This document shows, piece by piece, positions 14,430-54,793 of a stretch of DNA of 64,000 nt (the first letter of the stretch is position 1; each line of letters opens with the position of its first letter). Position numbers and translations under genes: made by a program. The notes under the pieces were generated by a model, which was given only the letters and a program-made list of their open reading frames with translations, was not told where the DNA came from and did not search any database. Origin of the DNA: Lasiodiplodia sp. COLG20 (lineage: Eukaryota; Ascomycota; Dothideomycetes; Botryosphaeriales; Botryosphaeriaceae); the NCBI GenBank assembly GCA_009801085.1, contig VNWV01000001.1, forward strand, positions 3,844,001-3,908,000, in the 5' to 3' direction.

Positions 14430-16867
14430 TCACATGTACTCCCGTCCCTCAACCGGCATCATGACTTCATCACTACTGAAAGAACAATGGCCGATATCCG
14501 TAGCTGTACTTCCCCACATCACTTCTCCCCATTGAACCGGCTTCAAATGGACGTCCTCTTCCCGGTCTGGTGGATGACATGAGGCGGAAATCATTGCGCT
14601 GGAAAACCTTGACGGTGGTATTCCAGGTTTGTTTTGAAGTCTCCCCCAGGAAATCGCTCCTGCAACAAATACGATAATGGTTATCGTCAAGATATACGCT
14701 GCGTCATGCGAGTATCCGAGGCCGGTAATATCCTCCGAGATGACAGGGACACCATTCTCGTCGTCGTAGGGGGCATAGAACTGCACAGAACCGAAGTACA
14801 GAGATTGAGATACCAAGTAGTGTAGGCCTGCCGACATGGCCATCAAAGGCAAGCTGAGCTTGAACGGTAATTGCAACCAGAACGTGGATCGCTGCGCGCC
14901 GGTAGGAGTGGAGGTTCGGAGTCCCTTTCGCTGATGTGCGTGCAATGATCATTCTCGCGAAGCAGCCATACAAGTGACCAGACGGTTGATTATGATATAG
15001 TTGAACGAGACGAGTAGTTGCGGGATGTTGGCGATAACGATGAGAGCTCCGACGTTCAGGCCTTGCCCGAATCTGATTGATCCAGGTTCAACGTAATCGG
15101 TAAAGGACCATTGGAAATTGACAGGCTGATAAACTTTGATAAATGCTATCAGAGTTGCAGCTACTGAAAGAGAAGATCTATTACAGGCAATTAGGACGAA
15201 CTCAAAGCTTCTGTTGCGGCTACAGAGAGACTTACAGTGCTATAGTCACGGCCCATTGACGATACGAAGCTCCGGCTAAACGACTTGAGGTAACTTCGGT
15301 TTGTATGTAGGCTCTTGGTCCAATTGGCCAGGGGTCACAGGCAAACTCCGCCTCTTTGGCCAAACACATTCCTTTGGTGGAAGGGTCGGGGGAACGCAGG
15401 AAAGATGCGAGGCCGTCACCAACTGTAACAAGCGACGGTCGCTTGTACTGGCAAAGGGTGGCAGTCATGGCCAAGAGTTTGACAAGATTCATGGCAATGA
15501 CGATGAGTAGGAGTCGTTTGTCATACCTCAAGGAGCAAGGGGAGAATTCGATCGGCTCCCACAGACATCTGGTGATTCGGTGACTCCCCATGTATTCCGA
15601 CCCCACCTTTGTTTGTTGTAAATACAACCCAAGTGACCAGTCTGTCGCGTTCCCTGTCCTATTGCCACATGCAGGTCGTCCCATGAAACCCCAATTGAAA
15701 GGAGCATTTCGACTATACATGCAGGTCTAATTAGTGCTGTCGTCGTTGTTCGGGAAGAGCTGGTCGATCCAGACGACTGATGTGTCCGAGCGGACCTCTT
15801 CGCTTACAGCAAGGACGTTGCGATATGTGACTTGAGAGTAGGATGAATATGTGTCGAGGCATTCCTGTGATGTCATCTCATTGAGGAGATTCTCTTGTGC
15901 CTTTTTGCGAACAACATCGAGAACATGGCCTGTGATAGGACCAAATGATGGCACACCGTAGTCTTCCATGTCTTTATGTGCGAAAGGTATTTTACCGGTG
16001 CTGAAAGAAGGCTCGGAGTGGGCGGCATCGAATTTGCCGATTAGGGACGTGTCAAAGGGAGCGCCGTGGAGAAAGTCGGGTGAAACGACCGCAGCAAGGT
16101 ATGAGTGCTTTCCAGTAGTGAGGAAAACCAGTGAGTTGTAACTAAATCCGTTAGAAGAAATTAGAACTCAAAAGAGGGTTGCACAGACATAAGATGCAGC
16201 GGAATTGAGGACAAGGCGAGAGAAAGCCAAAGACTCTTGCGATAGTTGCCGACAAAGCGTAAGTTGGTGAAGGATTGAATGCCAACTGAGAGAGTTTGGC
16301 CGCGCTTATGGGCATGATCGATTTCCTCTCTCGTGGGCGCCGAAAGTATTTGCATGGTATAGTTGCTGGCACTAAGGAGGAGCGTCCCTAGAGTGTTAAT
16401 GATGCCATGAGCAACTACTCCAAGGTGTTTGGCCTTGTCACAGTCACCATGGTAGAGGAACCCCTCAGCCACACCATACCTTCGCATAGCCCATGATGGG
16501 AAAGCGACATTGGCGACAAGGATGAAGAGCGCAAGGAAGATATTTACTGTAAGTCCAGCCTTCCACGCCGCCCAATTTCTGCGAAGCCATCGACGTACGC
16601 GGAGCATCCATTGGAAGGTGATATATCTGGTCGTTGCGGCATATATGTAGTGATCCAAGAAAGGTAGCCTCAAATGTTCGTATTTGTATGCGTTTGTCGT
16701 TCTCGTACAGTCAGTTTCGTCGCTGTTCAGCAGCTTAGCACGCTGGAATCTGCCAGGCCCGGAGTGGGGGCGCACATTTCGAAGGGCTCCAATTCCGGGT
16801 TACCATCACCACCTTCTGTGGAGGTCCTATAGCCGATCTCATACGAGAACATTTGATTGATCGACAT
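14430..16867 (-). pseudogene. DUF6536 membrane protein, copy 1 (two nonsense codons)
   Basis: Exons 16867..16776, 16722..16189, 16141..15236 and 15177..14430 would encode 759 aa, with the same layout and splice phases as copies 2 and 3. Exon 2 is 534 nt, as in copy 3. It carries the DUF6536 signature (GTLLLSASNYTMQIL, then REEIDHAHKRG) and four to eight TM segments. Two in-frame stops interrupt it: TAG at 15727-15729 and TGA at 14949-14951. Each replaces a Trp conserved in both other copies (the W of TNW-MC/DW-VC and of SREWSLFAH). The C-terminal motif GHCSFSSDEV--PVEGR is still present. It is divergent from X copy 1, 399 bp away. DUF6536 proteins are fungal integral membrane proteins of unknown function. 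A pseudogene is likeliest; readthrough or sequence error is possible but two hits make it less so. Confidence 0.8.
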
Positions 16868-17266
16868 GGCTCAAAAATCTGGTGTTTGGTGGCCGAAAGT
16901 GACAAGAAACCCGGTTTGCTCCATTCATATGTTCAACCACGACCACCTGAGTGCAGGGCCGACCCAGCGTTCTAGACAAAGTGTCTTAGTACTATTGTTT
17001 GATAGTGACGCACTGGGTGAAACTTGAGTGTGACGCAAGACAAGGATTAATCAAGCTCCTTCGGCCGAGTTTCGTTTCGAGCATCCCCTGCATGAAGTCA
17101 TGGATGATGTGTGTTGGATACACAGGAGTGAGATGGGCACACAAGAGTGTGCAGCAAAGTATCTACATGTTTCACCAACTAAGCCGTCCTGTACATATGT
17201 AGTGCTTCAGCCGTCACTTCCATTTATCAACAAAACTGTTCTTTCGAGAATATTACGTCGATTGCA
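16868..17266. promoter_or_regulatory. Divergent promoter region of pair 1
   Basis: 399 bp between the start codons of DUF6536 copy 1 and X copy 1. Both genes point outward, so their promoters must lie here. No shared motif with pairs 2 and 3 was found by eye. Confidence 0.6.
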
Positions 17267-19085
17267 ATGGCACTGCTGAACAGACCGCTTCCTGGTCCAG
17301 ATGGAACCAGCCAATCCCCATATGAAGATGAGGAAATAGGAGGCGTAGCTGGTCAGCCATCATCCAGCAACACGAATCGGCTACTTGATGAAAATGTCCT
17401 GGGAAGCAAAGCGACTTGGTCGGCCAATCACTTGTATTCCAACGGTCCTAGAAGAAACATGTTGATTGGATATGTTGATCTCTGTTTCCCAGTAATCATT
17501 TGGGTATATCACCTTGTCTCCGGATGTTCCATATATTAACCTTCTCTGAGTAGTTTTCATACGTCGTCAATTCACAAATAGAGGCCTCATTGTCTTTGAT
17601 ACCAAGCACAGGCAAGTGCGCGAAAGCAAGAGAACCTTTAGACAAGGGCTGACTTGAAAAAAGATTCCCTTGTGTACTCCCGCATTATACAAGCCATCGG
17701 AACGAGTACAGCTGCTGGAATCAGTCATCGAGAGGGACCAATTTTCATTCTCTCGGTGGGCCTCTTCTCAACTGGTAGGCACCACGGTGAAACTTGCCCT
17801 TGCTCTCCTTTATGTTCAATGTGCACTCACCTAACTTATTCCTATAAGGGCTACTGACTTCGGCCATGTATCTGGTTCTTGATTTTGGCCCGCACTGTAT
17901 GGGAATCGGGAATGACTACTGCCATACCTCTGCTGCAACGGTAGCATACCTGACGTTCTATGCTCTCGCAAGCTCAACGCTACTTCCCGTCACATTTATC
18001 CTTGGGGCTGAATATTACGACTCCGGCGCACGGCCATTTTTTTGCTTCATTTGGGGAAGCGGAGCTCCTCTTGCCCTCGCACTTTGGAGCATGATACAGC
18101 ACCAATGCAACGTCAAAAGATTCGAACTTTCACACGAGACCCGAACAGATGACATTTTGGTTCGTCTGCAGGGACTCTGCGTAAGTGTTATTTCTCTAAG
18201 CATTCCATCACTTATACGCATACCTAAGCCTGCTCGCCAACCATGGCAGGCAAAGAACCGGGTCCGGTTCTGGAAACAGTGGCGAAGACAAATCATCCAA
18301 GGGTGTAAATCAGTAAGTGACATCCGCAGTCATACAATACCACAAGAGTCCTCACACATGTAGGTCAAACTGCTGAGAAAGCATGTTCACTTCTATTTCT
18401 TCTTCACCTTTGCTTTTGCCCATGGGTTGTCTTCGCCCACTCGGCTGCTCGAATGCAGCAGCTTGATTTATTACAACCTGTTTTCCCTTGCTCCATACAC
18501 TTTCTACATACTAAATTCATGCTTAACTACGCATTGGTACGGTAAGTTCCAACCAGCCCTCGGACCGTTTCCATGGCTCAAAAGATCTAGGTACAGTTCT
18601 TGGAGTCTATCTGCTTCTCGAGACCTTCAAACTCTCGGTGGAGACAGCCTTCAAGCGTCCTCATTACCTTCTCGGGCTTTTTGAAACTCATGGGTTAATT
18701 ATACTTTGTGAGTCTTCCGATAGTGTATATTTCAGGAACAGTAGCTGATCTACACGTAGGCTTGGGACAATATGCTGTTGCAAATGTCTCAGGAAGGGGT
18801 CGGAGAGCTGTCATGATTGCGGTAGTTTTCGTTGCATTTCATCTCGCTCAGGCGGTATGCCTACTCGGAAAGGGATATTACTGGGAATTCTCCGCTGTCC
18901 CATTGTTGCTAAAGTGTTGCAGCCTTTTCATGTTCGTATTCTGGGCTGTTCGGGAGAACGCAAGCCGGAAGAAGGAAATTTCTGAAATGGGGATCTCGGA
19001 AGAGGAGTCTTATTCGCTTTGTCGGGTTGCAGAAGAAGAAGGCATGAGCGACCTGGAAAATATTCACTTTCGGTATTGTTTCTGA
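17267..19085 (+). pseudogene. Family X polytopic membrane protein, copy 1 (broken)
   Basis: Exons 17267..17503, 17554..17774, 17849..18312, 18364..18541, 18591..18707 and 18760..19085 match copies 2 and 3 in order and phase, about 513 aa nominal. Exon 2 is damaged. Reading on from exon 1 it meets TGA at 17650-17652, and its end is one base out of frame, with an A6 run at 17657-17662 where A5 would restore the downstream frame (DSLVYSRIIQAIG). The rest codes for several TM helices, a central cytosolic-looking basic segment (RFWKQWRRQ) and the C-terminal motif GISEEESYS...DLENIHFRYCF shared with copy 3. I do not recognise the family. It is divergent from DUF6536 copy 1, which is also broken. 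An extra intron removing the TGA was considered, but no GT-AG choice restored the frame. Confidence 0.7.
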
Positions 19086-20818
19086 CTTTTAGAAGTCGGG
19101 AGGTTTCTTCTATACGTTTGACTGAGGTAACAAGCCTTCTGTTCCTATAACAAAACTTTTACTCCAAATGAATTTCATCTGAGATGCGCATCTTTTGATA
19201 TTTGGTCTGCCTTTCGTCGCAGAAATGATTATTCGGCTATGCAACAGATTCGTTTATCATGGTTCATGTTTATTCCTGTTTGGCATCTGCTCAGCTGGAA
19301 AGACTTGAGTGAGAGCGGCTACCCCCCCATTCGAACTCATTCATTTACACTATATATCCTGTGTCTCCGTTGTGCAAGGAGTGAGCCTTCGATCCTCAGC
19401 CATCTCAGCTATGTTCTTCCTGTCTATTATCTAATTGGCTCAAGAAGAAGGTAAAATGGTAGTCCATGCATGCCATGACAGCCACAGGCACACTGTGTTG
19501 CACCTAATTTTCAGGGTAAGGCGTTTCTTGACCTCTGTGTAACTGATGGCAATGGAACTGCGTTGCTTGTGGCAAAAGAAGGCAAACGGTGCGACAATCG
19601 GCGCCAATTTGTGCCGTGTATTGGTGAAACTTGGGCGCAGGTTGGCGGCTTTGACACCTGCAGTGCCATGCAAACGAGTTCAGCCTACGTCGAGCCGCCA
19701 AAGCTGCCAAACTCAGATTATTCGTTGGTAGGGGACGATAATATGCGTGGGTGTCGTGACCGACGTGTATCATACAGGAAAAAAAAAAAAAAAAAGACAC
19801 GTGGTAACTACGCAGGAGCTGCTTGCGCAATTTCGAGGATATGCAGTGTTCGTTTAAAACAGAGTTTGAGCCCGCAAGTGGAATTCATAATAGCTGGATG
19901 CGAAGGGATGGCTGTTCGGTTGCCAAATTGTTCCGACACATCAGAGCCAAGAATGGGGAAGCGTTGATAGTCATGCGGGGGCTTACGCTTGGTGGTCGTA
20001 CATGCCATATACGGAAGGGCCTCTTGGCCCTGATTTAGCCTTGTGGCACGGTTCAAACACAGTAGTTCGGCTGGAGCAGCAGCGGAAATAGAAATCAGAA
20101 ACGCCGTTCCTGTCTCGACTTTCTTTTTTTAGGGAATGGAATGAGAGCTGGATTGAGACAATGAAAAATCAGACGAAAGGCGGCTTTTGACTTTGGGTGT
20201 ATCAAGATGATGTTGCACTCAGCCAAGCTGCCAAGTAGGTTTCCCCGCAAACACCCCAACCGCGAAGCTTTGCACACTGTCCACCTGCCCCCACCAGACA
20301 TAAGCTTGACCAGTATCGCTCTCAACCTCGGCGCGACTTGCAGCATGATCCGCATGCGACAATGCCAGATTTCCCGACGTCGTATCATAGGTAGCCAGCC
20401 GAGAGGTAGCACCATGCCGACTGCAGCCAACGCCGTCTCGTCGCTGCTGTCACGCCTCGCTGGCTTATCTGGTCCCCTGTGTCGGCCAAGCCAATTCTCC
20501 GCTGGCCGGATGCTTGCTGCAGCTGAAACGCCCCAAACAAGCGAACGCCAGGACGATCGTTTGGATGCCGATGTGTTATCTGCTGTGTAACTGCGTTGTT
20601 CTAGCTTCCATTGCTGCCGCTTGTCGCCCATGCGCGAAGCCAGTTCTCTCTTATGCTTTTCCTCCCTCGTCACTCCGGGTCTCCACTGTTCATCCTGCCG
20701 ATTCAGGCCCTGTCCTGCCCGCTGAGCCGGAACTTTGAGACAAGACATTTCCCAACTTTCGTCAACGCAACAGTCTTTCTTCCTTCTCATCCGGACACTC
20801 CTCCCCTCGTCGCACACC
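19086..20818. other. Intergenic region
   Basis: About 1.7 kb with short unconvincing frames only. It includes a 17-bp A tract at 19779-19795. The last few hundred bases are the promoter and 5' leader of the permease gene; a C/T-rich stretch precedes its ATG. Confidence 0.5.
19779..19795. repeat. A17 homopolymer
   Basis: Uninterrupted run of 17 A on the plus strand in intergenic DNA. Confidence 0.95.
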
Positions 20819-22975: not shown

Positions 22976-23112
22976 TGTGGAGGGGTGGGTGGGTCGGCGC
23001 GGATTGCGGTGCGGGTAATGGCAGGAGGTGGGTATTTAAGTCACATGGGTGAGAGGCAGCAGTGCATATCCTATGAAATTTCTGTCTATCTCCGTCGGAC
23101 CGTGGTAAAGAA

Positions 23113-23130: not shown

Positions 23131-23176
23131 CTAAGATCAGAGCAGATTGAAGTGTAGATTCTCCATCAGTAATCCT

Positions 23177-29784: not shown

Positions 29785-32700
29785 TCATTCCGTGGTCAGG
29801 TCGGAGTCGATTGAACGGCAATCTTCATTTTCGCAGTCCTCCCTTAGTTTTTTAATGCAGAGATCACAGAATGTGGTACTCAAGCCACCATCATCCTTAG
29901 GGAGATCGCGGAGTCCCCGAACCAGATCTACTGCCTTGATGCGACTAGATCGGTCAGTTAATAACATTTTCCTAATCAGATGTGACGGGTTCCATGAGAA
30001 GTCGAAGCGCAATGCAGGTTGGTGCTGCGTATTTGGAGCCTGCGCATTCTGAGTCTGATTAACTGAAGTGAAATAAGATTCCAATTCAGCCTTGCGCTGC
30101 GCCCAAAGCGCTTCAAGGTCTACGTCGGATAGTTGCGGGTGGCGCTCCCAGATGGAAAGTCTCTCGCGATGAAGAATCTGAGGGAATGAATCCGATGGCT
30201 GGATAGCAACTGAGGCTGGTTGGAGAAGATCCAGCCACGGTTCGATAGCCTCAATATTCCGATTATACCATGAATGCTTGGAGCCATTGGCACCAAAATA
30301 TTGTCGGACATCTTCTACCGTCTTGCCTTCGATCACCGAGTACATTTCGAGATACACGCAGCCCAGAGACCAAATATCGGCAGATTCGTTTCGCTTCTCC
30401 CATTCAGCTACTTCTGGTGCGGAGTAACGGGGATCGTGGAAGCCTCTGCCGGAGGTCGTTGGGCGGGTGTCATAACCCCAGTCATGGCTAATTATAGATT
30501 AGCAGTCTTACCAGTGTATCTGCAGGAGACGTATCGGTCATACCTGATGCCAAAGTCTGTCAAGAGGATTTCACCATCTGATATTAAGCAATTCTGCGGT
30601 TTGATGTCTTTATGCCTATGATCTCATAAGCATCGATATCCTTTCAAGCTATTCTGATCGTACCTTATTCTCATGTCATGGAGCTTGTTCAAAGCCGAGG
30701 CCAGACAACCAAACCAGCGCTTCAGACTTGCAATATCAGGCGACGAGTCCAAGTACTGCGCAAGGTTCATTACTGCCACCGGAGAGAAGAGGACCGCAAA
30801 ATCGCCCACATCGGTATAGCTTCCTACCATACGGACAAAATGATGATATCCTTCGGATGTCACTCGTCGAAGTACCTCCAACTCTTTCTCAAACATGGTT
30901 GTGGCTTCAGTCGCTCGGCCGCCTTGCAGCTTTCTCTCGCGCGGAATGAGTTTTCTCGCAACATGACGGTTATTCCTCGAATCGATGCAATGCGAAACCG
31001 ATCCAAATCCACCGCAGCCAAGTTCCTCCAGGGTTTCGAGATGCGAATCTGCATCCAGGAAGTGCTGGTGTAAGTCGGGATCCATCGATTGACTGAGAAC
31101 AAGCTCTTGATTCTGCAAAAAGCCATCCTTTACCTCCGGCTCTTGAAACAACTGCCTCAATAATTGATTGTCAAATGGAATCCATGTATCGGTTACTCCA
31201 GCACCCGCGAAAATTGGCAAAAGATCCAGACGGTCCATAGAATTGAGAATACAGTAGACTCGAGGGTTTGATGCCCAACGGAACATTTGCTGATAGGCAA
31301 GCTCGCCACGGACCAGCTCAAAATGCTGCTCTGTGAAAGGTTTCTGGGAACCGGGAATTTTCTCACGCACTTCCAGGCATGTGATCTCAACATCACCAAG
31401 TCTGTTGACACAGCACTCGTGGCACCACGCTGACTCCACCTCGGCCAGTGTCCGGATCTTTGAGGCCACCTGTTTCGCTGTCGGCCGAGTTGTATGTTGT
31501 CCAGACAGCATGCTCTCTACCAAGTCAAAGATGGACCAGGAGAACCGCTGAGAATCTTTTCCATGGAGTATGCGAAGATATTTCTGAGTCCATCGTGTAT
31601 GCCGGTCGAAGAAAAGTTCAGACTTGCTTGCGGTGTCGAGGTTTCGGCCGCATATACGGCTCAACATCTGCAAGTAGACATTCCCGAGGCCCCGTACATC
31701 TTCTAATTCATCGTCAGGTGAAAGGTAGTTATTTGTCATCTCTCTCCGGTCAACGCTGTAAGCCATCAGAATCATCAACGGCATAGCGCAAAACTTTGAA
31801 CCCACCTTGAGGCAAAGTTCGCGATGATGATGTTTTCTCTGTCAACGAATACGCTTGTCGCCTTGATGTTGCGGTGGCTGAGCTGATTCAGTATCCCTGT
31901 CTCCAAGATCCGGAATGCCCGTCAACTTACCGGATTGAGTTGCTATGTAGATACAAGATTGCTGATGCCAAACAGCCCATCCAACCCTGGAGTTGAGCGA
32001 TAAGATTTGGATCTTTCCCGAAGTTGGCCATTAACTGTGATAGATTGCATTCCTCGACCGGCGCGAAGATGAATGAGATGGAGTCTGGTGTGGAGTAACT
32101 TCCAACGAAGTCTGTCAGATGGCGATGGTGCAGGCGACTGAGAATTGTGATTTCAGTATAATCGCAGGGCTGAGGAATCGTTGTACTCCTGGAGACTACT
32201 TTTCGCGTGTATAATTTCCCAGACAATTTGTCTTGGACGGCATCAACAATCCACCGTTCCTGCGCGCAAATTCTCCTAATCTGTCGCATAGGCCAATCAT
32301 CGGGTCCGTGATAGGAAACATGTGTCCTGTAAGGCCATGTTTCAAGCGAAGGTAGACGCTTGGCCAAAACCAGCTTTTGCACCTTGGAGAAGTGTTCGAA
32401 GCCTTGGATATGAGCCAAAAGGGTGGACACGACTCTCTGTGGGGGAATTGGTATACAAAAGTCTGTAATCCCGTCATTAAGAACGTCGTCGAGTCTGTGA
32501 AGAAGCCCGAGCATCCGAAAGATGCAGTAAAGCGTTGGATTATTCGCCCATTCCTTGTAGCCTCTGGAGTCCAGGATCCGGGCAATAGCCTTGATGTCTT
32601 CGGGAGATTTGCGCTTCCTCGTGGGCGGAAAATATTCATTCAAGTCTTGCAGCTCGGTTGAGTCTCTTCTCAATGCAACCATCGTAAGCAGGACGGCTAC

Positions 32701-32811
32701 TCGTGGATTTTTTGCGCAACGCGAGGCTGAAAGTGGGGGTTTTGATGAGCTGACGCCAAGTCTCGGATAAGTCTGGTGGGGAGATAGAAGGCTGGGTACA
32801 TGGGTGTTCAT
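29785..32811 (-). CDS. Tandem pseudokinase-kinase protein with internal duplication
   Basis: Five exons: 32811..31931, 31877..31806, 31755..30664, 30615..30544 and 30487..29785, giving 939 aa with every phase matching. The protein is two copies of one module, an N-terminal helical domain plus a protein-kinase domain. The helical domains align at EWANNPTLYCI (~88) and RWASNPRVYCI (~477). Kinase 2 has a glycine loop (GCGGFG, ~564), VARK Lys (~586), HKDIKPQN (~683), DFG (~702) and APE, so it looks catalytically competent for Ser/Thr. Kinase 1 keeps the Lys (YTRK, ~204) but has no glycine loop, reads HRNIKATS in place of HRD and NFA in place of DFG, so it is a pseudokinase. Exons 2 and 4 are both 72 nt and have equivalent boundaries, so the duplication included introns. 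An alternative start is Met44. Likely cytosolic signalling; target unknown. Confidence 0.8.
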
Positions 32812-33622
32812 TGGTTTGTCGGATATGTGAGGCTGTAGATTCGCCTGCGCCTCCTTGCCGATCCTTCATAATCAAAACAATCGATTTTCCCCTCACACTC
32901 AAGAAAAGCCTGGTTTAATAGTTTTTCTTTCTGTGCCTACAACACCCTCTTCCTTACCTCCCCCATCGCATTCAGTAGCCCCTACGCACTCAGCGTCATT
33001 TTCACGTCGCGTCACACCGTAATCAAAACATAAAGATCTCAGCCTCACAACCCTTTATTTGTAGCTTTAAGTTCAATATTTTATATCACCTCAATCAAAT
33101 CCAGACTCGATAAGGATTTGCGTTCCTATTTTCCTCTTGTTTTAGTAAGGGAGGTGAAACTATGGGAGGGCCGGCTGGTCAATTATGATACGGGGATAGG
33201 TTCCTCAGTAGCAACGGTAGCATTATAACGAGTGACTATGGCAAAAACAATAGAGAAGTGTTTCGTGTTACACACGGTTATCTACGGCAAGGAGATATTG
33301 ACATTGAACCTGGCTCCCACCACGCTCTCTCTTTCTAGTATGGCAATCATGCCTGTACCCAGCCTGCCAGCGTTGAAATCAATATATGTGTCATTCTGGT
33401 AGCAAATTCCCTTGCCAGAGTTCGATTCAACCGATGTGTGTATAGTAAAATCTGCGATTCGGTATCTACAACGGACTGTCAGCGAGATCTTTTTGCATAA
33501 TAACAAAGGGAAACCCAACAGCTTACACTGCCATGCAGTTCTGAAATTCAGGGTAGATTGTTCTCGGATGTCGTTTGATGTGTCAATGTGTAATCCTTCC
33601 ATAGATCGGTAAATGGTGCGTT
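32812..33622. other. Intergenic region
   Basis: About 0.8 kb. Short minus-strand frames near 33282-33641 have no recognisable domain. Part may belong to the 3' end of the retropepsin-like fragment. Confidence 0.4.
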
Positions 33623-39193: not shown

Positions 39194-41268
39194 TCAGAAA
39201 AACCTCGGCTTAAACAACCTCTCCTTCCCCCTCCTCAGCAACCTCTTCTGCACCGCCTCCGTCTCATTCACCGGATTCGGCGCATTCAGCGTCGTGTTGT
39301 ACGTCGCATCACTCGGCAACACCTCCGTCTGCACCGTCGCGTTTCCTTCCCTATACTCACTCGTCGGCGTCCCCACCGTCACATACCCCGCACCAACCAC
39401 CTCCTTACCCGTCGCCAAATCCACGCCCTTCAACGCGCGCTCGAACATCTCGAGCGAGGCCAGCGGCTGGTAGAACGGCACCTCATGTCCACTCTCGTAG
39501 ATACGCACGAACGCAAACTTCGCCGCCTGCCGCACCTGCCCGTGGGCGATACCGTCGCTGGTCTCGATGTCAACGAAGCCCGCGACGTCGTAGTCCTCCG
39601 CGGCAATGATATCCGCCACAGCCTGCCCGCCGAGCCAGTTGCAGTTATAATCCGCGTCGCCGAAGTACAGCGTCACGCTGACGTTCCTTCCCAGCAGCGC
39701 GCGGACGTCCTCGATCGTGTTCATGCGCCTGTCATCGTCGCCCGTCGACCCGAACGCCGTGCTAACGGCATTGTTGGATTCGGAGAAATTGACGTACGCG
39801 CCGATGGCCTGCTGGACGGCGGGCGTGTTGAGGTAATCGACGTAGAAGGAATACGGGAAGGGGTCGGGGGTCAGCTCGCGGAAGTCGTATTCGTCGCGGC
39901 CGGCGTAGATGTCGTACAGGTTCTCGACCTCCTTGTAGCAGAAGTCGTCGGCGGCGCTGCAGACCTCGTTCAGGCCGGAGGTGTAGCAGGCGAGGGTTTG
40001 GTCGTAGCAGTTGCCCTCGCCGTAGAGGTTGTTGTACCACATGTCGGCGATGGTCGAGTTGAAGGGTTGGTAGTCGTATGTGTGGCCGGGGGAGATGGAG
40101 AAGTTGTAGTAGGCTTGGTACTGCGTGAGCGGGTCGAACCAGCCGTTGCCGATGAGGACGGATTGCAGGTCGATGGGGATGGCGTCGGTGATGTTCTTGG
40201 CGTTTTGCTGCTCGATGTACTCGCTGAAGACGGGCGCGTAGTGCCCGCCGTAGCTCTCGGTCGTGAAGTGGAAGCCGTTTTGAGAGTACTCCGGGAAGGC
40301 GCCCATGAAGCCTTGCAGCGTCTTCCAGAAGTTGGGCGCGGCGTTGTCGGTGGAGTTGGCCGTCAAGGTCAGGTTCGGGTACGAGTACGTGCCGCAGTCC
40401 GAGGCGTAGTCGGGGCACGTTGCGTTTGGCAGCGTGATGATGTCGCCTTGGTCGGACGTGTACGCCGACACGGGGATCGAGTAGGAGAAGCCGACCTGCG
40501 TGGGCTGGTCGATGAAGAGCTATTCAGATGTAAGTACGCGGGTGTAAATTCGGAGGTGTTTGAGATTATGCAGGGTCTTTCCGAGGCGGATAACCCCTGG
40601 TGCTGATCGTCGAGACTGACCATGTTGCTGACGTTGCTCCACGAGTACGGGTTGTTGTAGACGTTGCCGTCAATATCAACACCGCAGGGGCCAAGCTCCT
40701 GGAAAAGACCAATCATGGACGAGCTTCCAGGACCTGCATGGGAGTGGTCAGTTTTCCGCTGTTTTGTTTATTGGTGCTAGTGAATTCCATACCTCCGTTG
40801 ATCCACACGGTCAAGGGAGCAGTCGTCGGGTCTTGGTTGCGCGCCTCGAAGAACCACCTGCAACGCCAGAAATTTAGCCATTGAACTCCCCTCTCGACAA
40901 ACTCCACTGCAATCACGTACCAGAAAATGTGCTGGTCCTCAGCCACGTCCGCATAACCCGAAAGACTCTTGACATTGGGATCCGTCTCGCAAATGCCCGT
41001 GGGGACCTATTTCAGCAGGGTTAGAGACACGTTATTGGTCGAGCTGGCGTTTCACAACGATTTTTCGTGATCCGATTTTATGCGGGTAATCCCGAAGGAA
41101 GGAAAAGAGAGAAACGAAATCCACACGTACTTCCTTATACCGCACATTAACGCCAGCAGCGCCCTTCTTGAGCGTCAAGTTCGTCGGAGCAGTCACGAAC
41201 TGCGCAGAAACCGCAGACGGCAGCACGGCCGTAGCCGCGATGGCAACAGCAGCAAGCATCGAAGGCAT
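39194..41268 (-). CDS. Secreted serine carboxypeptidase (peptidase family S10)
   Basis: Five exons: 41268..41131, 41006..40921, 40857..40793, 40733..40621 and 40519..39194, giving 575 aa, typical for fungal S10 enzymes. [22 protein letters not shown] is a clear signal peptide. The oxyanion and substrate region reads [15 protein letters not shown], the catalytic Ser is in [10 protein letters not shown], the catalytic Asp in [11 protein letters not shown] and the His in [12 protein letters not shown]. More than ten N-glycosylation sequons and paired Cys suit a vacuolar or extracellular enzyme that removes C-terminal residues at acidic pH. A basic Arg-rich C terminus ([11 protein letters not shown]) follows the domain. 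Codon use is GC-rich, unlike the flanking membrane genes. Start chosen at the Met that begins the signal peptide; an upstream in-frame stretch is Arg/Ser-rich and unlikely. Confidence 0.9.
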
Positions 41269-42177: not shown

Positions 42178-44090
42178 CTAATATACATAGACAAAATTAT
42201 CGTTATCGATCTCCATTTCCTCCCTCTCCTCTAAAGCGCCCTCATGCAAAGCGCATGCGAACTCATCCCCAGCCATGTTGATTTGTTGTCTTCGCTTCAG
42301 GCTCTGCACCGCCGTAAAATTAACATACACCCAAAGGCAGACAATCTTAATTGCGTTGGCTATTAAAAAGAATTTGAACCATTGATCAATGGTAAGCCGA
42401 CTTTTGAAGATCGTGCACATCAGCCCTCCTATTGCGTGTCCAGAACAAAAGACCGCCACAAAAAAGACGCTCCGTACTTTGCCGCTTATCTTGGTTAGCA
42501 ATAAGATTATTGCCACTAAGCCTCTTATTTAGCTCTTATTCTTGCACTAAATAGGTCTTTGTGATACTCACAAGTAATAGAAATATCACCAGCCGTCGGA
42601 ACCAAGCTTAGTAGCCACAAGGGAATAGGACGACACTCCTGGACTCCATCAGACCCATAAACCAATTTTTCGCAACTCTGAATAGGCCACCAGGCACACA
42701 TTTCTGTGACCGTAATTACGGCGATAGGAATTGCTGGAATCCAATTGAAGTTAGCCCAGCAGCATGCATTTGCTTTGGGGATACGTTCAATTATTCAGAG
42801 GATGTCACAAGGGAATCCGTGGAGGACTTACCCACACAACCAACTCCCGTAGAAAAATGGAGAATTGCGCCAACAACGGCATATGCGAGTAGAGGAGACG
42901 CCTGCGCAAATGCATCGGCAAACTTCCAGTCGAGCGGTCCGCTGATTTCGCGTTTTGTGGAAGCATCTACAATGGCAAACAACAAAAAAAAGTATAACTG
43001 GTAGTCCACTAGTGAACCCGAAATCTAGTAAATGTTTAAAAAATAGGATATTAAGCTTGAACATCTAACGTACCTGATTCTTGTGAAGTTTCCACATTGC
43101 TCGGAACCTTGTCCAGTTATTTGGGTGCACTTCTCCATCGAAGAGTATGGCCGTTCTTTGTGATAGGACCCAGGGTGCTGTGGCGGAACTTGCACTGCTT
43201 ATCCATGGCTCAATTGCTAGTGATAGGCCACTAATTATAATCCCTTCGACGATTACTGGTAGGTTTGTCAAATTATTAGCCAGATGCCGGTTAATTTCGC
43301 CAATGAATACCGCGACTGGGCTAGAAGTAGCCCAAAGGATGGACCGAATTGGCTGCGCACGTTTGCTGTAGCACATATGTGCTAGCAACATACTCGCAGG
43401 CATCAGCGGAGAGCTTGATAGTGCGCAGAGAAGATAACAGACAGGTCGCAGTACATTATTTTGCCCGGAATAGAAGTTGAATAAGGAAGCAAATAAACCT
43501 GTGAGCTTTAGCATAAGGCCCCAAAAATCTATCATCTGGACCTTGCTTACCTGTGAGGAATATGCTGGTTGGAATAACTCTCGCAAACTCTTCGACAACA
43601 ATTGCCATCGATCCCAGCCATACACCAATTGCTCGCCCAATGTAGAAGAGCAAAACCGCTGAATCGATCTCTCTCCGTTTTGAGAAATTGTTGAGGGCGG
43701 TCGAATTCTCGTCCAGAATGGTTTCTTTAGTGAAAACCGTTTCGAGCTGTCTGTCCCAGAAGTAGCAAAGCTGACCCTGCAGATTAGTACCCGACTTCCA
43801 TCATTTCAATATGAAATAGGACTTACCCAAAGTATGGGTAGAATACGATAGTCCGCAAATCTATTGCGCTTCCCTTCCTGAGCCTCTTGAATCCGTATAT
43901 CCGGAAACTCAGCGGTCTCCGTCTCCATGCGCACACCCTGGAGTTCCATGTCCGTCAGCTGACTATCGCCATGTTGCTGAGATGTACTGGATCTAGTGGA
44001 TATGTTTTCATAAGTCCCGCCATCTTCGACTTGTGTACAGCCCTGACTGCCGACTGCAAAGTCTGACACTTCTTGGCTAGCTCGAGACAT
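42178..44090 (-). CDS. Family X polytopic membrane protein, copy 2 (intact)
   Basis: Six exons: 44090..43827, 43776..43551, 43498..43074, 43024..42832, 42733..42572 and 42515..42178, giving 535 aa. All donors are GTAAG, GTACG or GTGAG and all phases agree. The ~80-residue N-terminal part is hydrophilic, followed by about nine to ten hydrophobic helices (for example FYIGRAIGVWLGSMAIVVEEF, CYLLCALSSSPLMPASMLLA, YQLYFFLLFAIVDA, VFFVAVFCSGHAIGGLM). The C terminus is charged and ends EMEIDNDNFVYVY, matching the DIEN-HFRY end of copies 1 and 3. The last two exons are 162 and 338 nt, identical in length to those of copy 3. I do not recognise the family and see no transporter, receptor or enzyme signature. 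It is divergent from DUF6536 copy 2, with 775 bp between start codons. This is the best reference copy. Confidence 0.8.
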
Positions 44091-44865
44091 GTATCTCACT
44101 GCAACAACAGGCCTCGTATTCTGGGAAACAATATGCGTTCGTGTGAAATTCAAATGGGCGACAAGGCTGGGAATGAGCCACAGAAGAGTGGGAATGCGGG
44201 GCTACAAGGCTTTTGATGGCACCAGTAGACTATTATTAGCTGTGAATGTCAGTTACACGAGATTGCATGCCACAATTGCACAGAACTAAACATGATTGGT
44301 AGCAGTCTGCAAGGCAGAATTCTCAGCCTTGCCTTTCCCGAAGAACTAAAAAAAGACCATGTAGCTGACGAGTCAAATTGGTGACACAAGGAGGATTCTG
44401 TGACCAAGGCTGTCACAAAGTTGTTTTTCTGCAAAGTAATGCAGCTTTGCCCTATCACATCTATTTACTTCGGAGTTACACAATTAGACGCATTACTATT
44501 ATTAGCGCATATCGCATGTGCCGCAGACGCGAATTGGATTCACAAATAGTACTACTAACTATATATAGGTCAGATTTCAAGTATACTAAATGATAAGTAC
44601 TAGCAATAATATTAATAGCTTTACCCGGATGACTTCTTCTAGTCCTCCCTTCCGCCTTCCGCCAAACACATCCGCTTAGACCCCGATGCACGCCAGCTGG
44701 CTCTCTCAACAGTTCCAATATTTAGAAGGCGGATCCCCGCCATCTTCTATAGATCTAGATGTATTAGATGGGTTGGTTCACTTGAGCTGAACTTTCTATT
44801 ATTTATTATCTGACGCTCGCAATAATAGTCAAGAAACATCCTCCAACGCACGGCCTTCTGCAGTT
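44091..44865. promoter_or_regulatory. Divergent promoter region of pair 2
   Basis: 775 bp between the start codons of X copy 2 and DUF6536 copy 2, both pointing outward. AT-rich; no motif shared with pairs 1 and 3 identified by eye. Confidence 0.6.
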
Positions 44866-47136
44866 ATGAGGCTCGGCTCCTTTCGAACTCCTCTGCACCC
44901 CTTTGCTGAATCTGCCTCGCCATGTTCGACCTTACTTAGCAAGTTCCCCGGATTAGCTGCTTTGAAACACCATTTCAATGCCTGGAGAGTCGTTGTCGCA
45001 TTCAACATTTTGGTGGCCTCTATCACCCTGGCCATCAATATTTCAGCCCTAATTTGGGCTGGTGCAAGACATGAGGACCATGTCTTATACGGTGGTGATT
45101 GTGAGACGGTTGACACCATTGCCCTTTACGCACATGCAGTAATCAATGTGCTGGGCACCGCTCTTTTTGCTGCAAGCAATTATGCAATGCAAATTTTAGC
45201 GTCGCCAAGTAGGCATGATGTCAATGTCTCTCACAGTCAAGGACACACTTTTTCCATTGGTGTACAATCCCTAAGAAATCTCAGGAATATCAACACACTC
45301 CGATTCACACTGTGGATCATCCTCGCAATTTCTTCTATCCCTCTAAACCTTGTGTAAGTTTGTTAATACCCGATAAGCAGTATTTAATTTCTAACACCAC
45401 AAGGTATAATTCGGTAATCTTTCCAATGACAGGTGCACGCGAGTATAAAGTTGCCGTCGTGACGCCGAATTTCCTGAGCGGGGCGGCTTTCGATCTCAAG
45501 TCTATCAACAATCTTACGAGTTCTTCATCGAAATCTCCTTTCTCCAGCGGGGTGCTATCTCTTCATTTGCACCAAGATTTATCAAGCCTACGAATTCCTT
45601 CGGTCGAGCCCCATGATCTCGAGTTACTGAATTCACTTCAGTCGAAATACCTCAAGACGCAGTTAAAAAACATGACGACCGATGCATGCATCAAAGCCTA
45701 CCTTACAAGTCAACAATTGACTCATCGCAATCTTATTGCAGTGAGCGACGAAGCCCGCTCAGAGTCAAGCTCTGTCGTTTGGCTAGATCGCTCCTCGGCG
45801 AGAAACTTTGCTACGAACTGGATGTGTCGATACGTAAACGGCTCCATTGATTCTTGGACGCATGACATTAAGGATCCTGAATGCACTCCTGAGTATTCTT
45901 CCATATACCCCGACGATTGGGCTGTCGGTATGTATGCCACGCAACTAAAAGATGGCTATTTTAAAGTCGGAAGACATCGGATATCCCGGTGCTATGCAGA
46001 GGAATCCGAATCAGCTTGCAGGCTAGCATACGAACCAAGGCTTCTAGCGGTGGTCATCGCAGCAAATGCCGTTAAGGTAGTTGCTATGATGGCAACTCTG
46101 TTGCAATACAAGCGGCCGGCATTGGTTACCATTGGCGATGCCCTTGCATCATTTTTGGAAGAGACCGACGTAGCGACACGCGGGATGTGTCTCACTACTG
46201 CGAAAGGGTTTGCCTCTCAATCCTGGAGTACTCGGCCTCAAGTCTTCTCTCGGCAACCCAGAGCCCTCAAACGGTCCGCTGGCGCCTCACGCCAGCAGTG
46301 GATCGCAACCAGTTTAATGTACGGATATTGAACCAGCCTCTCACTATTTTCCCTCCGCCCCCTCTTTTTACTTATAAAAAGCTGAGTAGATCTCCAGGTT
46401 CGCTATAACAATGATCGCCGGTATCGTATGCTTCGCAAGTATTTACGATGTCTCAAATACATTTCGTTGGTCAAGCTCCGGATCTGTCAGTAAGGAGTCT
46501 CTCAAGCTCGGCACCGGATTAGATGTAGCCTCAGCCGTCGTGCTAGCTAATCTTCCTCAAGTCATTTTATCGCTGACCTACCTAATCCTCAACCGGCTTT
46601 TGACCTGCATGGCAGTCTCCAGAGAGTGGTCTTTGTTCGCACATACGCGAAAGGGTCTCCGAACTTCTGATTCACAAGGAGAGCAGCGGTCGACGTACTG
46701 GTTACAACTTCCTCTAAGATTCTCCATCCCGATGATTTTCGTTTCGACTGGCCTTCACTATCTTGCGTCACAGAGCTTGTTCTTTGGAGGTTTGCGCATA
46801 TATTCTGCGTACAGCGATGACACATTCGTTGAGAGTTATACTGGGCTTGGATATGCACAGACTCCAGCCCATGCTCTGTTAATAACACTCCTGCTCTTGT
46901 ACGCCTTCATCATTCTGTGGAGCAAATCCTACAACGATCCGGGAATGCCACCGGGCGGTTTCAACAGCGCAGTTCTGTCCGCAGCTTGCCATCCTCCGGT
47001 TGGCGAGACCGACGTTCATCTCAAACCAGTACAGTGGGGCGTGGTCAGCCCACCGGACGAGGAATCTGGAGTCGGACACTGCTCATTTAGTAGTGACGAG
47101 GTTTCGTTGCCGGTTGAAGGGAAGAAGTACGCATAG
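44866..47136 (+). CDS. DUF6536 membrane protein, copy 2 (intact)
   Basis: Exons 44866..45353, 45404..46318 and 46398..47136 (introns 50 and 79 nt) give 713 aa, joining at the same places as the other copies. It lacks the short first exon seen in copies 1 and 3 and starts directly at ATG 44866. DUF6536 core: AWRVVVAFNILVASITLAIN, GTALFAASNYAMQIL, then VGVQSLRNLR-like ending. The central exon is extracellular or lumenal in character with conserved Cys and the intact Trp of ATNWMCRY. TM segments follow (VVIAANAVKVVAMMATLLQY; VVLANLPQVILSLTYLILNRL), the SREWSLFAHTRKGLRTS loop and the C-terminal GHCSFSSDEVSLPVEGKKY. All conserved residues broken in copy 1 are intact. Function is unknown. Pairs with X copy 2. 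Confidence 0.85.
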
Positions 47137-48934: not shown

Positions 48935-49583
48935 ATGCGTTTCACCTCCATCGCCATTGCTGCTCTCGCGGTCGCTGTCAACGCCAGCCCCGTGCCACTC
49001 AACACTGAGGGAGCCTCGAACGTGCAGTACGGCCAGGCCATTGGCGAGGCCGTCGAAGGTGCCATCGCTGCCGTTAACGGCATCAAGAACTGGAACAAGG
49101 TCAGCGGGCACAACAATCGCCCTCCTCAGGAGTTGCTCTAACACCTGTAATAGAAGCGCGAAGCCTTTGTCAAGGCACTCACTCAGTCCATGTGGGACCA
49201 CAACCCGGACCCGAGCGAGGCTGTTGCTGCTATCTGCTATAACGACGGTTACGCCCTGAGGGTCCCGACGGGAATGCTCGGCTTGAGAAGCGAGTCCGTT
49301 TCTTCCGGACCGCTGCACACGAGGTGAGTGCAAACACTGATTTTAGATTGAAGAGGGGAGACTAACGCACGGAATTTTTCAGCTACGACTGCTTCTACAT
49401 GAAAGGCAACAATGCTTTCTGGTCTCAGGGTGACGGTGGGAGCGTCAACGTAAGTACTCTAAATCTACAACATCATAAGTATTGCAAGCGCACCTGCTGA
49501 CTTGATATTCTCAGCTCTGGACCGTCTACAACGGCAATCGCTGCTCGTTTGACCATTCTACCTCGGATCTAACCTGCAATTAA
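48935..49583 (+). CDS. Small secreted protein (156 aa)
   Basis: Four exons: 48935..49099, 49154..49323, 49383..49449 and 49515..49583. Introns carry clear branch sites (CTCTAACACC, GACTAACGC) and phases agree. ATG 48935 (TTTTCAAAATGCG) begins a signal peptide, MRFTSIAIAALAVAVNAS, followed by PVPLNTEG. The mature part is about 138 aa, with a dibasic NKKRE site at the first splice junction that could be cut by Kex2. Four Cys fall in the last two thirds (AICYND, YDCFY, NRCSF, LTCN). The tail WTVYNGNRCSFDHS is compact and likely folded. I do not recognise the family. It lies immediately before X copy 3 (convergent) and points away from the other small secreted gene. Confidence 0.75.
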
Positions 49584-49896
49584 GCGTCAGTATGTGGAGT
49601 AAGGCAATGTGGTCCCTCGGTTGAGACACTCAGGGCTGGCGATATGATACAACAGCCGGATTATCATGCATTCGCCGTCGATCTCTAAATCTTGCACAAC
49701 ATCACAGATCTTCAAGAAAAAAAAAAGTAGAGAGGGGAGCGGGAGCACGTGTGCTTATTCTGCAATCTGTCAACCGGAAATGACTGGACTTGGTTTTGTT
49801 TCTCTAAACATGGCATCGATAACTTCAACCAACGCCTAATGTACAAACTGAAAGCACCCAACCATGTATATATAATAGCCTCCAAGCAGACCCCTC
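49584..49896. other. Convergent 3' region
   Basis: 313 bp between two stops, with an A10 run near 49717-49726. No gene. Confidence 0.5.
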
Positions 49897-51805
49897 TCAA
49901 TAGCCGTACCTAAAATGGATGTTCTCGATATCCGTCATTTCCTTGCTCTCTGCAATGATATTGAAAGCATCTGAATGTTCCTCGGATATCCCCAGCTCTC
50001 TTACCAGCTGCTTTCGCTCTCGATTCTCCGTAACGACCCAATAAGTATACATAGCAAGGCCAAAGAATTTTATAGTCATACAGGATATAAAGAAAATGGC
50101 CAAATACTTGAAAGTGCCAAATTGATCTGGCAATCGGTATGTTTGTAGGCGGATCAAGGTACCAAGATAATACCCTACAACAAGCGTGCTAATGATGAAT
50201 GGTGCTCTTGCTGCTCCTCTTACATTGGCTATAGCTATAATCGCAAGGCATGTAATCTTATCAGCGACACTGGACGCTGAAAGTGGATTTCCAACTTACA
50301 GATGATTGAGAGCTCCCCGGAGGTGTCGCTCAACAGATGTTTTGGCTGAAAACAATTCCAATCGATCGTCTTCGAGATGTAGCTCTCGAAGATTATGCTG
50401 CCTTGAAACAATGAATAGGCTGATTCTATGCAGATAATGAGCACTGCAAGGGTGACTGTAGCTGTGTGAGTTACTACAATGCGGGGTCTTGGTGAAATTC
50501 TTACTGCGTAAATTGGGCTTCTTCCAGAACACGTAACCAACTATGATATACCATATGAGGGAAAGAAGTCTGGCGTATATTGTGTATGGCCAACAGCCTA
50601 TCGGACGGGGATATATGTTTCTATCCAACCCCATGATAATTGATAACGCGAGGAAAAAATAAGCTTGTGGGTCTTTAAGGGATTGATAGACCTGTATCTA
50701 ATTGAGTAAAATCATTGTCAGGATGCACTGACAAACGCACGCACCTGGGGATTGATGGTCATATTAACCCTCCGAATTGCTATTAGAGATTTCCACGTTC
50801 GTCGTGCTCGGATTCTGGGTTCGCCTGAGCTTTCAAAGTTTCGCGTGTCCAGGATGAAATTGGTTGCCAAAGCAACTATTGCAAAAGCCAAGCCTTGCAG
50901 TTTCAAAATGAGATTGCGTCTATCCGGGGAGGTCGTATAGGTATTCATGGCGATAGTCGTGTTGTAGGAATGAAGCTTTCCGTCGTCATCGTAGGAACGG
51001 TCGGGAAAGTGATCAATTTCCGCGAGAATTTTCCCACAAATGCCTGCAGAAGCAACGAAAAGTAGGCGTGATGGCTGAGATTCCTGCAAATAATACTTCA
51101 CGGCCAAGAGAAGCATTTCTGGAAGAATGGCTGCACTTATCAAGCCGCACAGAAGTAGAATGACTCCATGAAGATAGGCTTTTGGCGTCGGGAAATCTTT
51201 TAAAAACCCTACTAAGTCATTTTCATGAGAATGGGGAGCAAACATTGTCCACAAAGATGTGAGAATTCCTAGAATAAGTTAGGCGTAGAACCACTTTGAT
51301 GATTAAGTAGTCCTGCTTACCTGTAATGAATAAGGTAATCTTAAGGGATGCGAAAGGCCCGAAATAACGGATCATCAATATTGAAAAAAAAGGTACCAAA
51401 GAGTGGGAAAATGGGAATAAACCACGTGTTCACTATGATACATTAACGAGGGCATTCATGAAAACGGTGAGCACGACTTACCCGGCAGAGGAAAGAAAAT
51501 AAATGTATCTTCCAATTGACTATACAGTAGAAAGCAAATCTTGTGATATCTGGTAAGTAATCTTGATTAGAAGACAGATCGGAGTACTCACCCATAAAAA
51601 AAAGTTGCAGCTTCATATCCAACGAAGAGGGCACAGTCCGATTAATAGGCCGGACTGTGATCGCTTGATTTTGGCCAGCATCTACTTCATAATGAAGTAT
51701 TTCGGACGGACTGTTGGTGATAGTCGGAGGCTGACCGTCCGACGCATGTCTGCTGTGCGAAGACCCTGAAATTGCCTCCGAGGCGTTATCTGGAGATTGA
51801 GTCAT
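49897..51805 (-). CDS. Family X polytopic membrane protein, copy 3 (frame broken as given)
   Basis: Seven exons: 51805..51592, 51519..51482, 51432..51321, 51268..50745, 50697..50505, 50461..50300 and 50234..49897, about 526 aa nominal. The last three exons are 193, 162 and 338 nt, exactly as in copy 2. From exon 4 on the frame is clean, with TM helices (AYLHGVILLLCGLISAAI; TLAVLIICIESAYSLF) and the C-terminal GISEEHSDA...DIENIHFRYGY. Exons 1-3 do not join as written: a TGA falls at the start of exon 3. Alignment with copies 1 and 2 puts the middle part in the other frame, bounded by two 8-bp T runs (coding strand), one in exon 1 (51596-51603) and one in exon 3 (51384-51391). One base gained in the first and lost in the second would restore everything. 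This is sequence error or real decay. Divergent from DUF6536 copy 3. Confidence 0.7.
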
Positions 51806-52364
51806 TGCAAAGAGAGAAACGTGGATGGAGGTGGCAAAGAGGCGGAGATTTGCTTACAGTGGTGCATGGACGGTCGCTGCGTGCATTTAAAGATAGAACG
51901 GGTCTGTTTCACCACAGAATTACGAGCCCAGGCAACAGTGACCTGCGCGACACGTCACCATGAAAGTTCCTGTCGCGTAATTCCGTGAGGCTCGCATTAG
52001 TGCTTATGGAGCCATCTTACTCGGTGACACAATGAGCAGCCACATGGGACATACTGGTAGATAGGTTATAGTGTTCTTATGGATGACCCTTGGAGTGATA
52101 ATATGCTCGAATGCCTATATCTTCCCCAAACGTTAGGACGTAGACTGGGACTACACATGGCGTCATGTAGCAAGCTGGTATTGCAAGGTGCCTCTGTTCA
52201 GCTGGACGAGAATTTTGTTACACAAATGCATAGCCACCGCTGCATCGCACTCTGTATGACGGATGCAGCGCTAATTATATAGATTGCTGCAGTCTGGATA
52301 CTTGTTATTATGTGTTCAGCCGACTTGAATTTTCCAATCTTCATCGTGTGGGAAATTTTATATC
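51806..52364. promoter_or_regulatory. Divergent promoter region of pair 3
   Basis: 559 bp between start codons of X copy 3 and DUF6536 copy 3, both pointing outward. No conserved element recognised by eye. Confidence 0.6.
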
Positions 52365-54793
52365 ATGAACTGTTTTGAATCTGTTCGAACACTAACTCCA
52401 AGCGGAGATCGTGGCTTAGAGCCGATTAGGTCCCGCCACGATGATCAACTTTCGTATGGCCCTAAATTTCCTGAAGAGATCTAGACTGACCATCACCAAG
52501 GACCAGAGAGCACCGGTTGGAGATTGACATTGGTCCGCCCGCCGAGCAGGTCACTTCATCTGACTCAACTGAGTCAGATAAAGCCTGGATCTGGGACATT
52601 CATCGGCGTACATGGATCACCAAACTGAGGTCATATCGACGAAATCGGCCAAACGCTTGGAAAACCGCAATGACGTTCAATATTCTCATGACACTCGCTA
52701 TCTTGGTCTTCAACACTTCTTTCTTTGTAATTGCGGCAGGACATAATGACCTCAGTGAAGGATCTCTATACACTGGCTCATGCCAGAAAACTGAGATATT
52801 TGCAATGATTAGTCATATGGTCATTAACATTTTCGGTACGTTACTTCTAAGCGCCAGCAACTATGCCATGCAGATCCTTGCTTCGCCGTCAAGAGACGAC
52901 ATCAATTCTGCACATCGTCGTGGTGTATCTCTCTCCATTGGAGTTCAGTCTCTCAAAAACTTGAGGTTTGTCGGCTACACACGTTTGTCGATATGGATTG
53001 CTTTGGCTCTTGCTTCTATCCCATTACATCTATTGTATGTACATAACCATATGGAACTTGAAATCGACGCCTAACAGTACCTCCAGATACAACTCGACCG
53101 TATTTACAACCAATGGACAGTTTGCATACGTAGTGGCTGTAGTCACATCAGATTTCGAGCAAGGAAGACCTTTCGATCTTGAATTCACAAACCAACTTTC
53201 GGCCAACGCTCCTGTTCCTACTCCAGAGACGTGGGGACAACTGCCCTCAAACAATTCAGCACAAACACCAGACGATCTGTTGAAATTGCTTGAAAGCATT
53301 GACTATGAGCTTCCTCCTGTTCGGGCTGGAGATCGGGATACACTAGCACGATTACAGAGCAAGGCTCTACATAAAGACCTAGTGAGCTTTACCAAAGATG
53401 AGTGCCTGGAAATGTACTGGGGGTCATCTCCAACGAATTATAGGCATGTCCTTGCTATTAGCAACACCACCGCCTCGAACAACTCAATCCTTTGGCTCGA
53501 CAATTTTTCTTCACTGAACAAAACCTGGAAAGACTGGGTGTGTGCTTACGGAAACGTTGTCGACATGGAATGCGGTAATTTTGCATTCTCTGGTGTGTGG
53601 CCTCTCGGATTCTACGCCAAACATCAGGATAACGGGTGGAAATTGAAGAGCTATCCGATTTCGAGGTGCCTAGTAGAACCAGTTGACGATCCATGTTCAC
53701 TACGGTACAACAGCAGTATCCTTATCATCGTGCTAACAGCAAATGCCGTCAAGCTGGTTGCTATGGCGGCAACAATGCTCCAGTACCGACAACCAGCTCT
53801 GGTAACTGTTGGAGATGCACTCGCATCTTTCCTGGAAAGGCCTGATTGCACCACTTACCAAATGTGCCTTACTGGAAAAGGCGAATTCAATTCTAACATA
53901 TGGACTGCTGGACCGAAGAAATATTCAGTGAACAATAAGGAGTCTCGGCGCTCAAACGGCGCTTCTCAGCTACAGTGGGCAACAGCGGCTGCATTGTAAG
54001 TTCGAAATCTGGGAGTGTGATAGACGCTAATAGATCTAGATTGCTCTCTTGTTTTACTGGAGGCGCAGTATGCGTCATATTGGTCTATGACAGTTACTCT
54101 GGACTTGATTGGGCTTCGAGTGGCCCCGCGAAAGCGGACACTGCAGAGCTTGGCCGTGGCCTTCCGGAGTCGATATTGATCTGTCTTGCAAACCTACCGC
54201 AGATGGTACTGTCCTTCAACTATATCCTCTGCAACCGCCTTATGACTTCCATGGCTGGATCTCGCGAGTGGTCGTTATTTGCACATCAAAGAAAAGGGCT
54301 TCGGACATCACAGCCTAAAGGTTCACAACGCTCGACTTACTGGTTACAGCTGCCAATGAAGTTAAGTCTCCCGATGATGGTCATTTCGTCGTTGCTACAT
54401 TACGTTGCGTCGCAGTGTATTAGCTTCGGGTCCATGAAGTATTATGACTCAGACTACCTAGGAAAAGGTGGCAAGCATACCGTGTTGGAAGATTTCTCGG
54501 GACTGGAATACTCACGAACGGCGATACATGCGCTCCTTATTCTTCTGACCATAGCGTTTGGGGCTATAGTGGCGTGGGGCCAAGGAAATAATCAGCATGG
54601 GATACCACCTTGTGGTTTCAACAGCGCCGCCATTTCCGCGTCTTGTCATCCACCAACAGAGGAGGAAGAGCCGCATCTCAAGCCGGTGAAATGGGGGACG
54701 GGCCCAGCGAATGAGGATGGAGATGAAATTGGCCATTGTTCGTTCAGCAGCAGAGATGTTACGATGCCGATTGAAGGGAGAATGTATATGTAG
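52365..54793 (+). CDS. DUF6536 membrane protein, copy 3 (intact)
   Basis: Exons 52365..52453, 52501..53034, 53087..53995 and 54040..54793 (introns 47, 52 and 44 nt) give 761 aa. The first exon (MNCFESVRTLTPSGDRG) is supported by a GTATGG donor, CTGACC branch site and ACCAAG acceptor and mirrors the small first exon of copy 1. The DUF6536 core has AWKTAMTFNILMTLAILVFN, GTLLLSASNYAMQILASPS and ASIPLHLL. The central loop keeps the Trp (KDWVCAYG) lost in copy 1. C-terminal helices (LIIVLTANAVKLVAMAATM; ICLANLPQMVLSFNYILCNRL), the SREWSLFAHQRKGLRTS loop and GHCSFSSRDVTMPIEGRMYM follow. Likely plasma or internal membrane; function unknown. It pairs divergently with X copy 3. Confidence 0.85.

Follow-up and report, generated by a model that had tools for sequence, protein, structure and literature searches.

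The window analysed here, 64,000 nucleotides of the Lasiodiplodia sp. COLG20 genome (contig C1:3844001-3908000 of a 43.5-Mb assembly in 88 contigs), contains three pairs of divergently oriented genes (14.4-19.1, 42.2-47.1 and 49.9-54.8 kb). Each pair combines a gene of the DUF6536 membrane protein family (D1 to D3) with a gene for a second membrane protein (X1 to X3), which an earlier note on this DNA had placed in an unrecognised family X. The nature of X and its repeated association with DUF6536 are the subject of this report.

Gene pairs in the window and in the genome

Splice-aware gene models reproduced the three divergent pairs (Table 1), including the inverted orientation of pair 1 relative to pairs 2 and 3. 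The models place no gene between the two members of any pair, although no search aimed at one was made. The distances between start codons previously read for pairs 1 and 3 (399 and 559 bp) stood, and for pair 2 the model gives 595 bp; the 775 bp of the note would fit a start at an in-frame Met further into D2 (44866), the distance depending on which start codon is chosen. D1, D2 and D3 each consist of four exons with splice phases 2,2,2 and, as described in the note, all three carry the C-terminus GHCSFSS..V..P.EG. The 534-nucleotide (nt) exon attributed to D1 and D3 is present as exon 2 of D1, while exon 2 of D3 measures either 528 or 534 nt, depending on which of two acceptors 6 nt apart is used. 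The X genes have conserved splice phases, and the exon lengths of 193, 162 and 338 nt are indeed common to X2 and X3. The tail D-EN-HF-Y proposed for X is clear in X1 (DLENIHFRYCF) and X3 (DIENIHFRYGY) and weaker in X2 (DNDNFVYVY). X3 has an irregular exon structure at its N-terminal end, where one exon is either 19 nt long or damaged. The final models of X2 and X3 supersede earlier ones that were used in alignments A1 and A2 and in the early X searches.

Table 1. Features of the three divergent pairs in the window (aa, amino acids)
Feature	Position	Strand	Structure or size
D1, DUF6536 gene, probable pseudogene	14430-16867	-	exons 16776-16867, 16189-16722, 15236-16141, 14430-15177
Pair 1 inter-ATG region	16868-17266		399 bp
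X1, divergent MFS anion:cation-symporter relative	17267-19085	+	8 exons, 471 aa, one GC-AG intron in model
X2, divergent MFS relative	42178-44090	-	533 aa; exons 43827-44090, 43551-43770, 43074-43498, 42832-43024, 42572-42733, 42178-42515
Pair 2 region between modelled ATGs	44091-44685		595 bp
D2, DUF6536 gene	44686-47136	+	754 aa; exons 44686-44771, 44829-45353, 45404-46318, 46398-47136
X3, divergent MFS relative	49897-51805	-	505 aa; exons 51592-51805, 51482-51549, 51321-51339 (uncertain), 50745-51268, 50505-50697, 50300-50461, 49897-50234
Pair 3 inter-ATG region	51806-52364		559 bp
D3, DUF6536 gene	52365-54793	+	759 aa; exons 52365-52453, 52507-53034, 53087-53995, 54040-54793

The repeated co-duplication that the note had seen in the window proved real and wider than the window, as contigs C1, C78 and C34 of this genome together hold five such pairs, all divergent. 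The additional X genes, X4 (its start codon picked manually) and X5, lie at C78:323.3-325.2 kb and C34:17.8-19.7 kb, with divergent DUF6536 partners, D4 at C78:325.9 kb and D5 at approximately C34:20.7 kb. D1 (L017), D2 (L026), D3 (L025), D4 (L016) and D5 (L027) all exceed the PF20163 cut-off. Seven hydrophobic segments were counted in each of D1 to D3, laid out as three segments, a loop of about 200 residues and four segments; D4 has eight and the partial D5 seven.

All five X genes found in the genome are paired with DUF6536. The outcome in which X is usually unlinked to DUF6536, raised in the note, was therefore not what this genome revealed, a weak match on contig C8 (E value of 0.58) aside; the only other matches of the X search were X6 and X7, described below. 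Conversely, the X profile placed an X gene next to 5 of the 31 DUF6536 matches, 31 being a lower bound for the genome. No X was found within the approximately 4-6 kb examined 5′ of each of the other 26, and DUF6536 therefore does not need X. The sensitivity of the X profile is incomplete, as it missed the MFS genes in L041 and L051, and still more divergent X genes could escape it.

The integrity of the copies was also compared. In D1, residues 347 and 587 are in-frame stops; D2 to D5 all have Trp at both positions. The first can be avoided by an 81-nt intron and the second only by a 144-nt intron that deletes a conserved stretch; since no intron skips the second stop without this loss, D1 is most likely a pseudogene. 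The two stops, the irregular N-terminal exons of X3 and the GC-AG intron required by the X1 model would fit a genome in which most of the window pairs are duplicates in decay and just one or two modules are alive. We consider this highly improbable, as D2, D3, X2, X4 and X5 have open frames and consistent splice sites despite their deep divergence, and D4 (read to the end of its locus) and D5 (read minus exon 1) are open over the portion covered.

X and the fungal anion:cation symporters

None of the five single X proteins gave a relevant family match in Pfam, including MFS_1 of the major facilitator superfamily (MFS), and the X profile had no sequence match in PDB. Genome searches with X1 and X3 exposed two weaker relatives, X6 and X7 (C78), which are ordinary MFS transporters (PF07690 at 8.2e-33 and 8.3e-32) and match the SLC17 structures of sialin, VGLUT2 and DgoT by sequence. 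Comparison of the five-member X profile with X6/X7 by hhalign gave a probability of 99.1% (E value of 7.8e-19) over 334 columns, corresponding to X positions 176-527 of 528. The aligned part begins near helix four, extends to the C-terminal tail and takes in a conserved L.DP stretch that precedes the second half. The profile matches were reciprocal: with the X profile, X6 scores 1.4e-12 and X7 4.8e-10; in the other direction, the X6/X7 profile detects X3 (2.1e-12), X5 (2.3e-9), X1 (9.5e-7) and X4 (1.8e-4). In addition, a phase-1 intron at alignment column 175 is shared by X7 and four of the five X genes, a second phase-1 intron lies near the C-terminus (column 522 in X7 and X3, column 517 in X1, X2, X4 and X5), and the tail D.EN.HFRY is common to X, X6 and X7. 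With regard to the 12 helices of the MFS fold, a crude hydropathy count gave 8-9 segments for X, 9 for X6 and 7 for X7.

On the basis of this profile homology and the shared introns and tail, the placement of X with the fungal anion:cation symporters (MFS, Dal5/SLC17-like), as a very divergent relative, is well supported, and the label "unrecognised family" is strictly speaking incorrect. These symporters are of the Dal5/TNA1 type, TCDB class 2.A.1.14. X as a new protein family was ruled out by the profile comparison, the shared introns and the reciprocal matches. The DAL5 family is the subject of PMC2329640.

Despite these likenesses, X differs from the symporters in having no MFS_1 match, in being found only beside DUF6536 and in its fourth helix. 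The canonical Asp-Lys pair and Glu of the family align with Asp46-Arg47 and Glu133 of DgoT, in which the substitutions D46N and E133Q each abolish active transport (PMC6532931). The Glu133 position is Ser in all five X proteins. Seven residues earlier, the Arg has given way to Leu in X1 and X3, Tyr in X2 and X5, and Cys in X4, while a Pro five residues further on is kept and anchors the fourth-helix columns. Both the Arg and the Glu (DgoT 126 and 133 by count) are retained in X6 and X7, the only controls aligned. As for the Asp-Lys/Arg pair of the first helix (DgoT 46-47), no intact pair was aligned in any of the five X proteins, and gaps leave this column unsure. These replacements suggest that X would no longer be a proton-coupled anion transporter.

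Several observations count against this account of X. The N-terminal third of X was left unaligned by hhalign, X2 was not found by the X6/X7 profile, the column-175 intron is absent from X4 and the C-terminal intron is absent from X6. The residue losses are read from alignments of 14-22% identity in which the first-helix columns are insecure. Moreover, the structure model for the X half of the pair, made with P0001, failed, with a predicted local distance difference test (pLDDT) score of 45. P0001, from a 58.5-kb contig, was the only database relative of X2 found, by a search with an early X2 model minus 26 residues, among 7994 scored candidates. A search with alignment A2 returned no X relative among 7996 candidates and missed P0001 as well, which makes it a weak negative, and a scan of viral contigs with P0001 returned no X relative.

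The alignment from the fourth helix to the tail, with its L.DP stretch, would also fit an X that still functions as a transporter, its substrate and coupling having changed, with DUF6536 as an accessory subunit or regulator. The replacement of the fourth-helix Arg and Glu in all five X proteins and the fast divergence of X, with 18-27% identity outside the X4-X5 pair, make this a rather remote prospect. A more specific form of the loss-of-coupling proposal is that X constitutes a pseudo-transporter without coupling residues and solely an obligate partner of DUF6536, together with which it would make up a two-part receptor or channel in the membrane, duplicated into several versions in this fungal lineage; we consider this unlikely, though less so than a working transporter.

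The neighbourhood of ordinary symporters was used as a control. A single-sequence X7 search of the genome, in which 93 of 170 candidates were scored, gave 102 matches at 72 loci, one of which lies within 5 kb and two within 10 kb of a DUF6536 match. Canonical symporters thus showed no general link to DUF6536, with this single locus of 72 within 5 kb. An MFS gene about 3.3 kb from the DUF6536 gene L019, on the same strand, is missing from the X7-like control list.

History and possible role of the pairing

The D proteins are 41-44% identical to each other, except for D4 and D5 (56%), and the X proteins 18-27%, except for X4 and X5 (42%). The sister relations are thus concordant, D4-D5 being the closest D pair and X4-X5 the closest X pair. 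A single recent segmental duplication, which the note had named as a possible explanation, fails and was ruled out by the 41-56% identity among the D copies.

A full-length tree was built from 28 full- or near-full-length proteins (5 paired, 3 unpaired from this genome and 20 of 106 database DUF6536 proteins). In this tree, D1 to D5 form one clade with the database proteins P0069 and P0097 (support 100/100), and the unpaired L007, L012 and L018 branch just outside it. D1 to D5 alone were rejected as a clade, since P0097, the 516-aa record of LTHEOB_6026 of Lasiodiplodia theobromae to which D2 is 63% identical, groups with D2, and P0069, from a 58.9-kb contig, groups with D4/D5. Therefore, at least the D2 and D4/D5 lineages separated before the sources of these records split off. 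The paired genes also cluster in a short-domain tree of 28 of the 31 matches (L028, L030 and the C12 match being left out), with one of 500 shuffles as low. Through the full-length tree, the descent of the paired DUF6536 genes from one origin is fairly well supported, and pairing once, followed by joint duplication, seems to explain the identities and the tree best. Within PF20163, the paired D proteins share their length range and the C-terminal GHCSF motif with L001, and in this genome D1 to D5 are the only members with an X partner found.

The module is a divergent pair in which one gene encodes a DUF6536 membrane protein (about seven hydrophobic segments) and the other an MFS-type protein whose origin lies in the fungal anion:cation symporters. 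The two genes would have come together a single time, ahead of the divergence of the copies, and would then have been duplicated and retained as a unit because their products cooperate within one membrane. Both genes could be under common control through the short upstream region that they share, and X may be an MFS scaffold, re-purposed or no longer transporting, that serves as partner of the DUF6536 protein in the manner of a transceptor or heteromer. Yeast Snf3/Rgt2 and SLC3-SLC7 are precedents for a transporter fold serving as a sensor or in a heteromer.

We tentatively favour, at close to even chances, a shared membrane function of D and X as what their repeated co-duplication reflects, and the two proteins may form a two-part membrane complex. 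The chief rival is passive linkage, in which ancestral neighbours were co-copied by dispersed duplication and kept adjacent by a shared promoter region, while the proteins have separate functions. This is a credible if somewhat less probable explanation. The single clade of the paired D genes on the full-length tree and the 26 DUF6536 matches without X would fit it, as would the apparent decay of D1 next to an X1 that is not broken. It accounts less readily for the fact that all five X genes still adjoin a D gene, although most D proteins are only 41-44% identical and the pairs lie on three contigs, and that no solitary X was found in the genome, the C8 match again aside.

The preference for a shared function has further evidence to contend with, besides the state of D1 and the many DUF6536 genes without X. 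The pairs seem to derive from one event, and the linkage of five X genes out of five does therefore not represent five independent events. A chance probability of 1.4e-12 calculated for the pairing presumes independence of the copies and was set aside for this reason. The short-domain tree leaves the paired clade unresolved, with two changes in the best tree and one in 47% of the bootstrap trees. Finally, no 7-10-mer was common to all five intergenic stretches, that of pair 5 having been delimited manually. If D and X do act together, a co-duplicated, transporter-derived partner would provide a handle on the role of one branch of DUF6536, a large fungal membrane family. X would offer a transporter that naturally lacks its coupling residues, which would make the question of its role simply testable.

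DUF6536 relatives and neighbouring genes

The predicted model of P0069 (pLDDT of 81, fair) had no convincing match among solved structures. The Lasiodiplodia theobromae protein LTHEOB_6635 and one DUF6536 protein encoded here share 95% identity. Scans for DUF6536 found none on viral contigs (with alignment A4) and none on prokaryote contigs (with P0069 as the query). A literature search for DUF6536/PF20163, also combined with Lasiodiplodia, returned no functional paper; the single paper in which the term occurs concerns unrelated work on Brucella MucR (PMC10746212).

Elsewhere in the genome, the DUF6536 genes L023 and L001 are divergent to each other at L031:2006-7585 (C1, about 2872.5-2878.1 kb), with no X found there, and L006 and L012 stand in tandem on the same strand in L036/L042 (C9, about 129.6-137.1 kb). 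DUF6536 proteins in databases bear the labels PF28510 and PF28511, neither of which was returned by a Pfam scan of the D3 exons. Alcohol oxidase and exoribonuclease parts are annotated as fused to the DUF6536 records P0073 and P0092, which may be merged gene models.

A serine carboxypeptidase open reading frame (ORF; PF00450) at 39197-40519 of the window ends about 1.7 kb from X2. No carboxypeptidase gene like it was found in the other loci examined. The Stemphylium record P0012, annotated as carboxypeptidase plus DUF6536, is 34% identical to the window carboxypeptidase and may be another merged gene model.

Just past pair 3, an ORF at 55650-57053 encodes a HET domain (PF06985, 6e-32), and ORFs with SesA and ankyrin domains lie beside pair 1, at 11032-12132 and 12408-14246. 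HET, SesA and ankyrin domains are associated with fungal incompatibility. Two adjacent kinase-like ORFs occupy 30627-32865; the PF00069 match of the second does not reach the cut-off.

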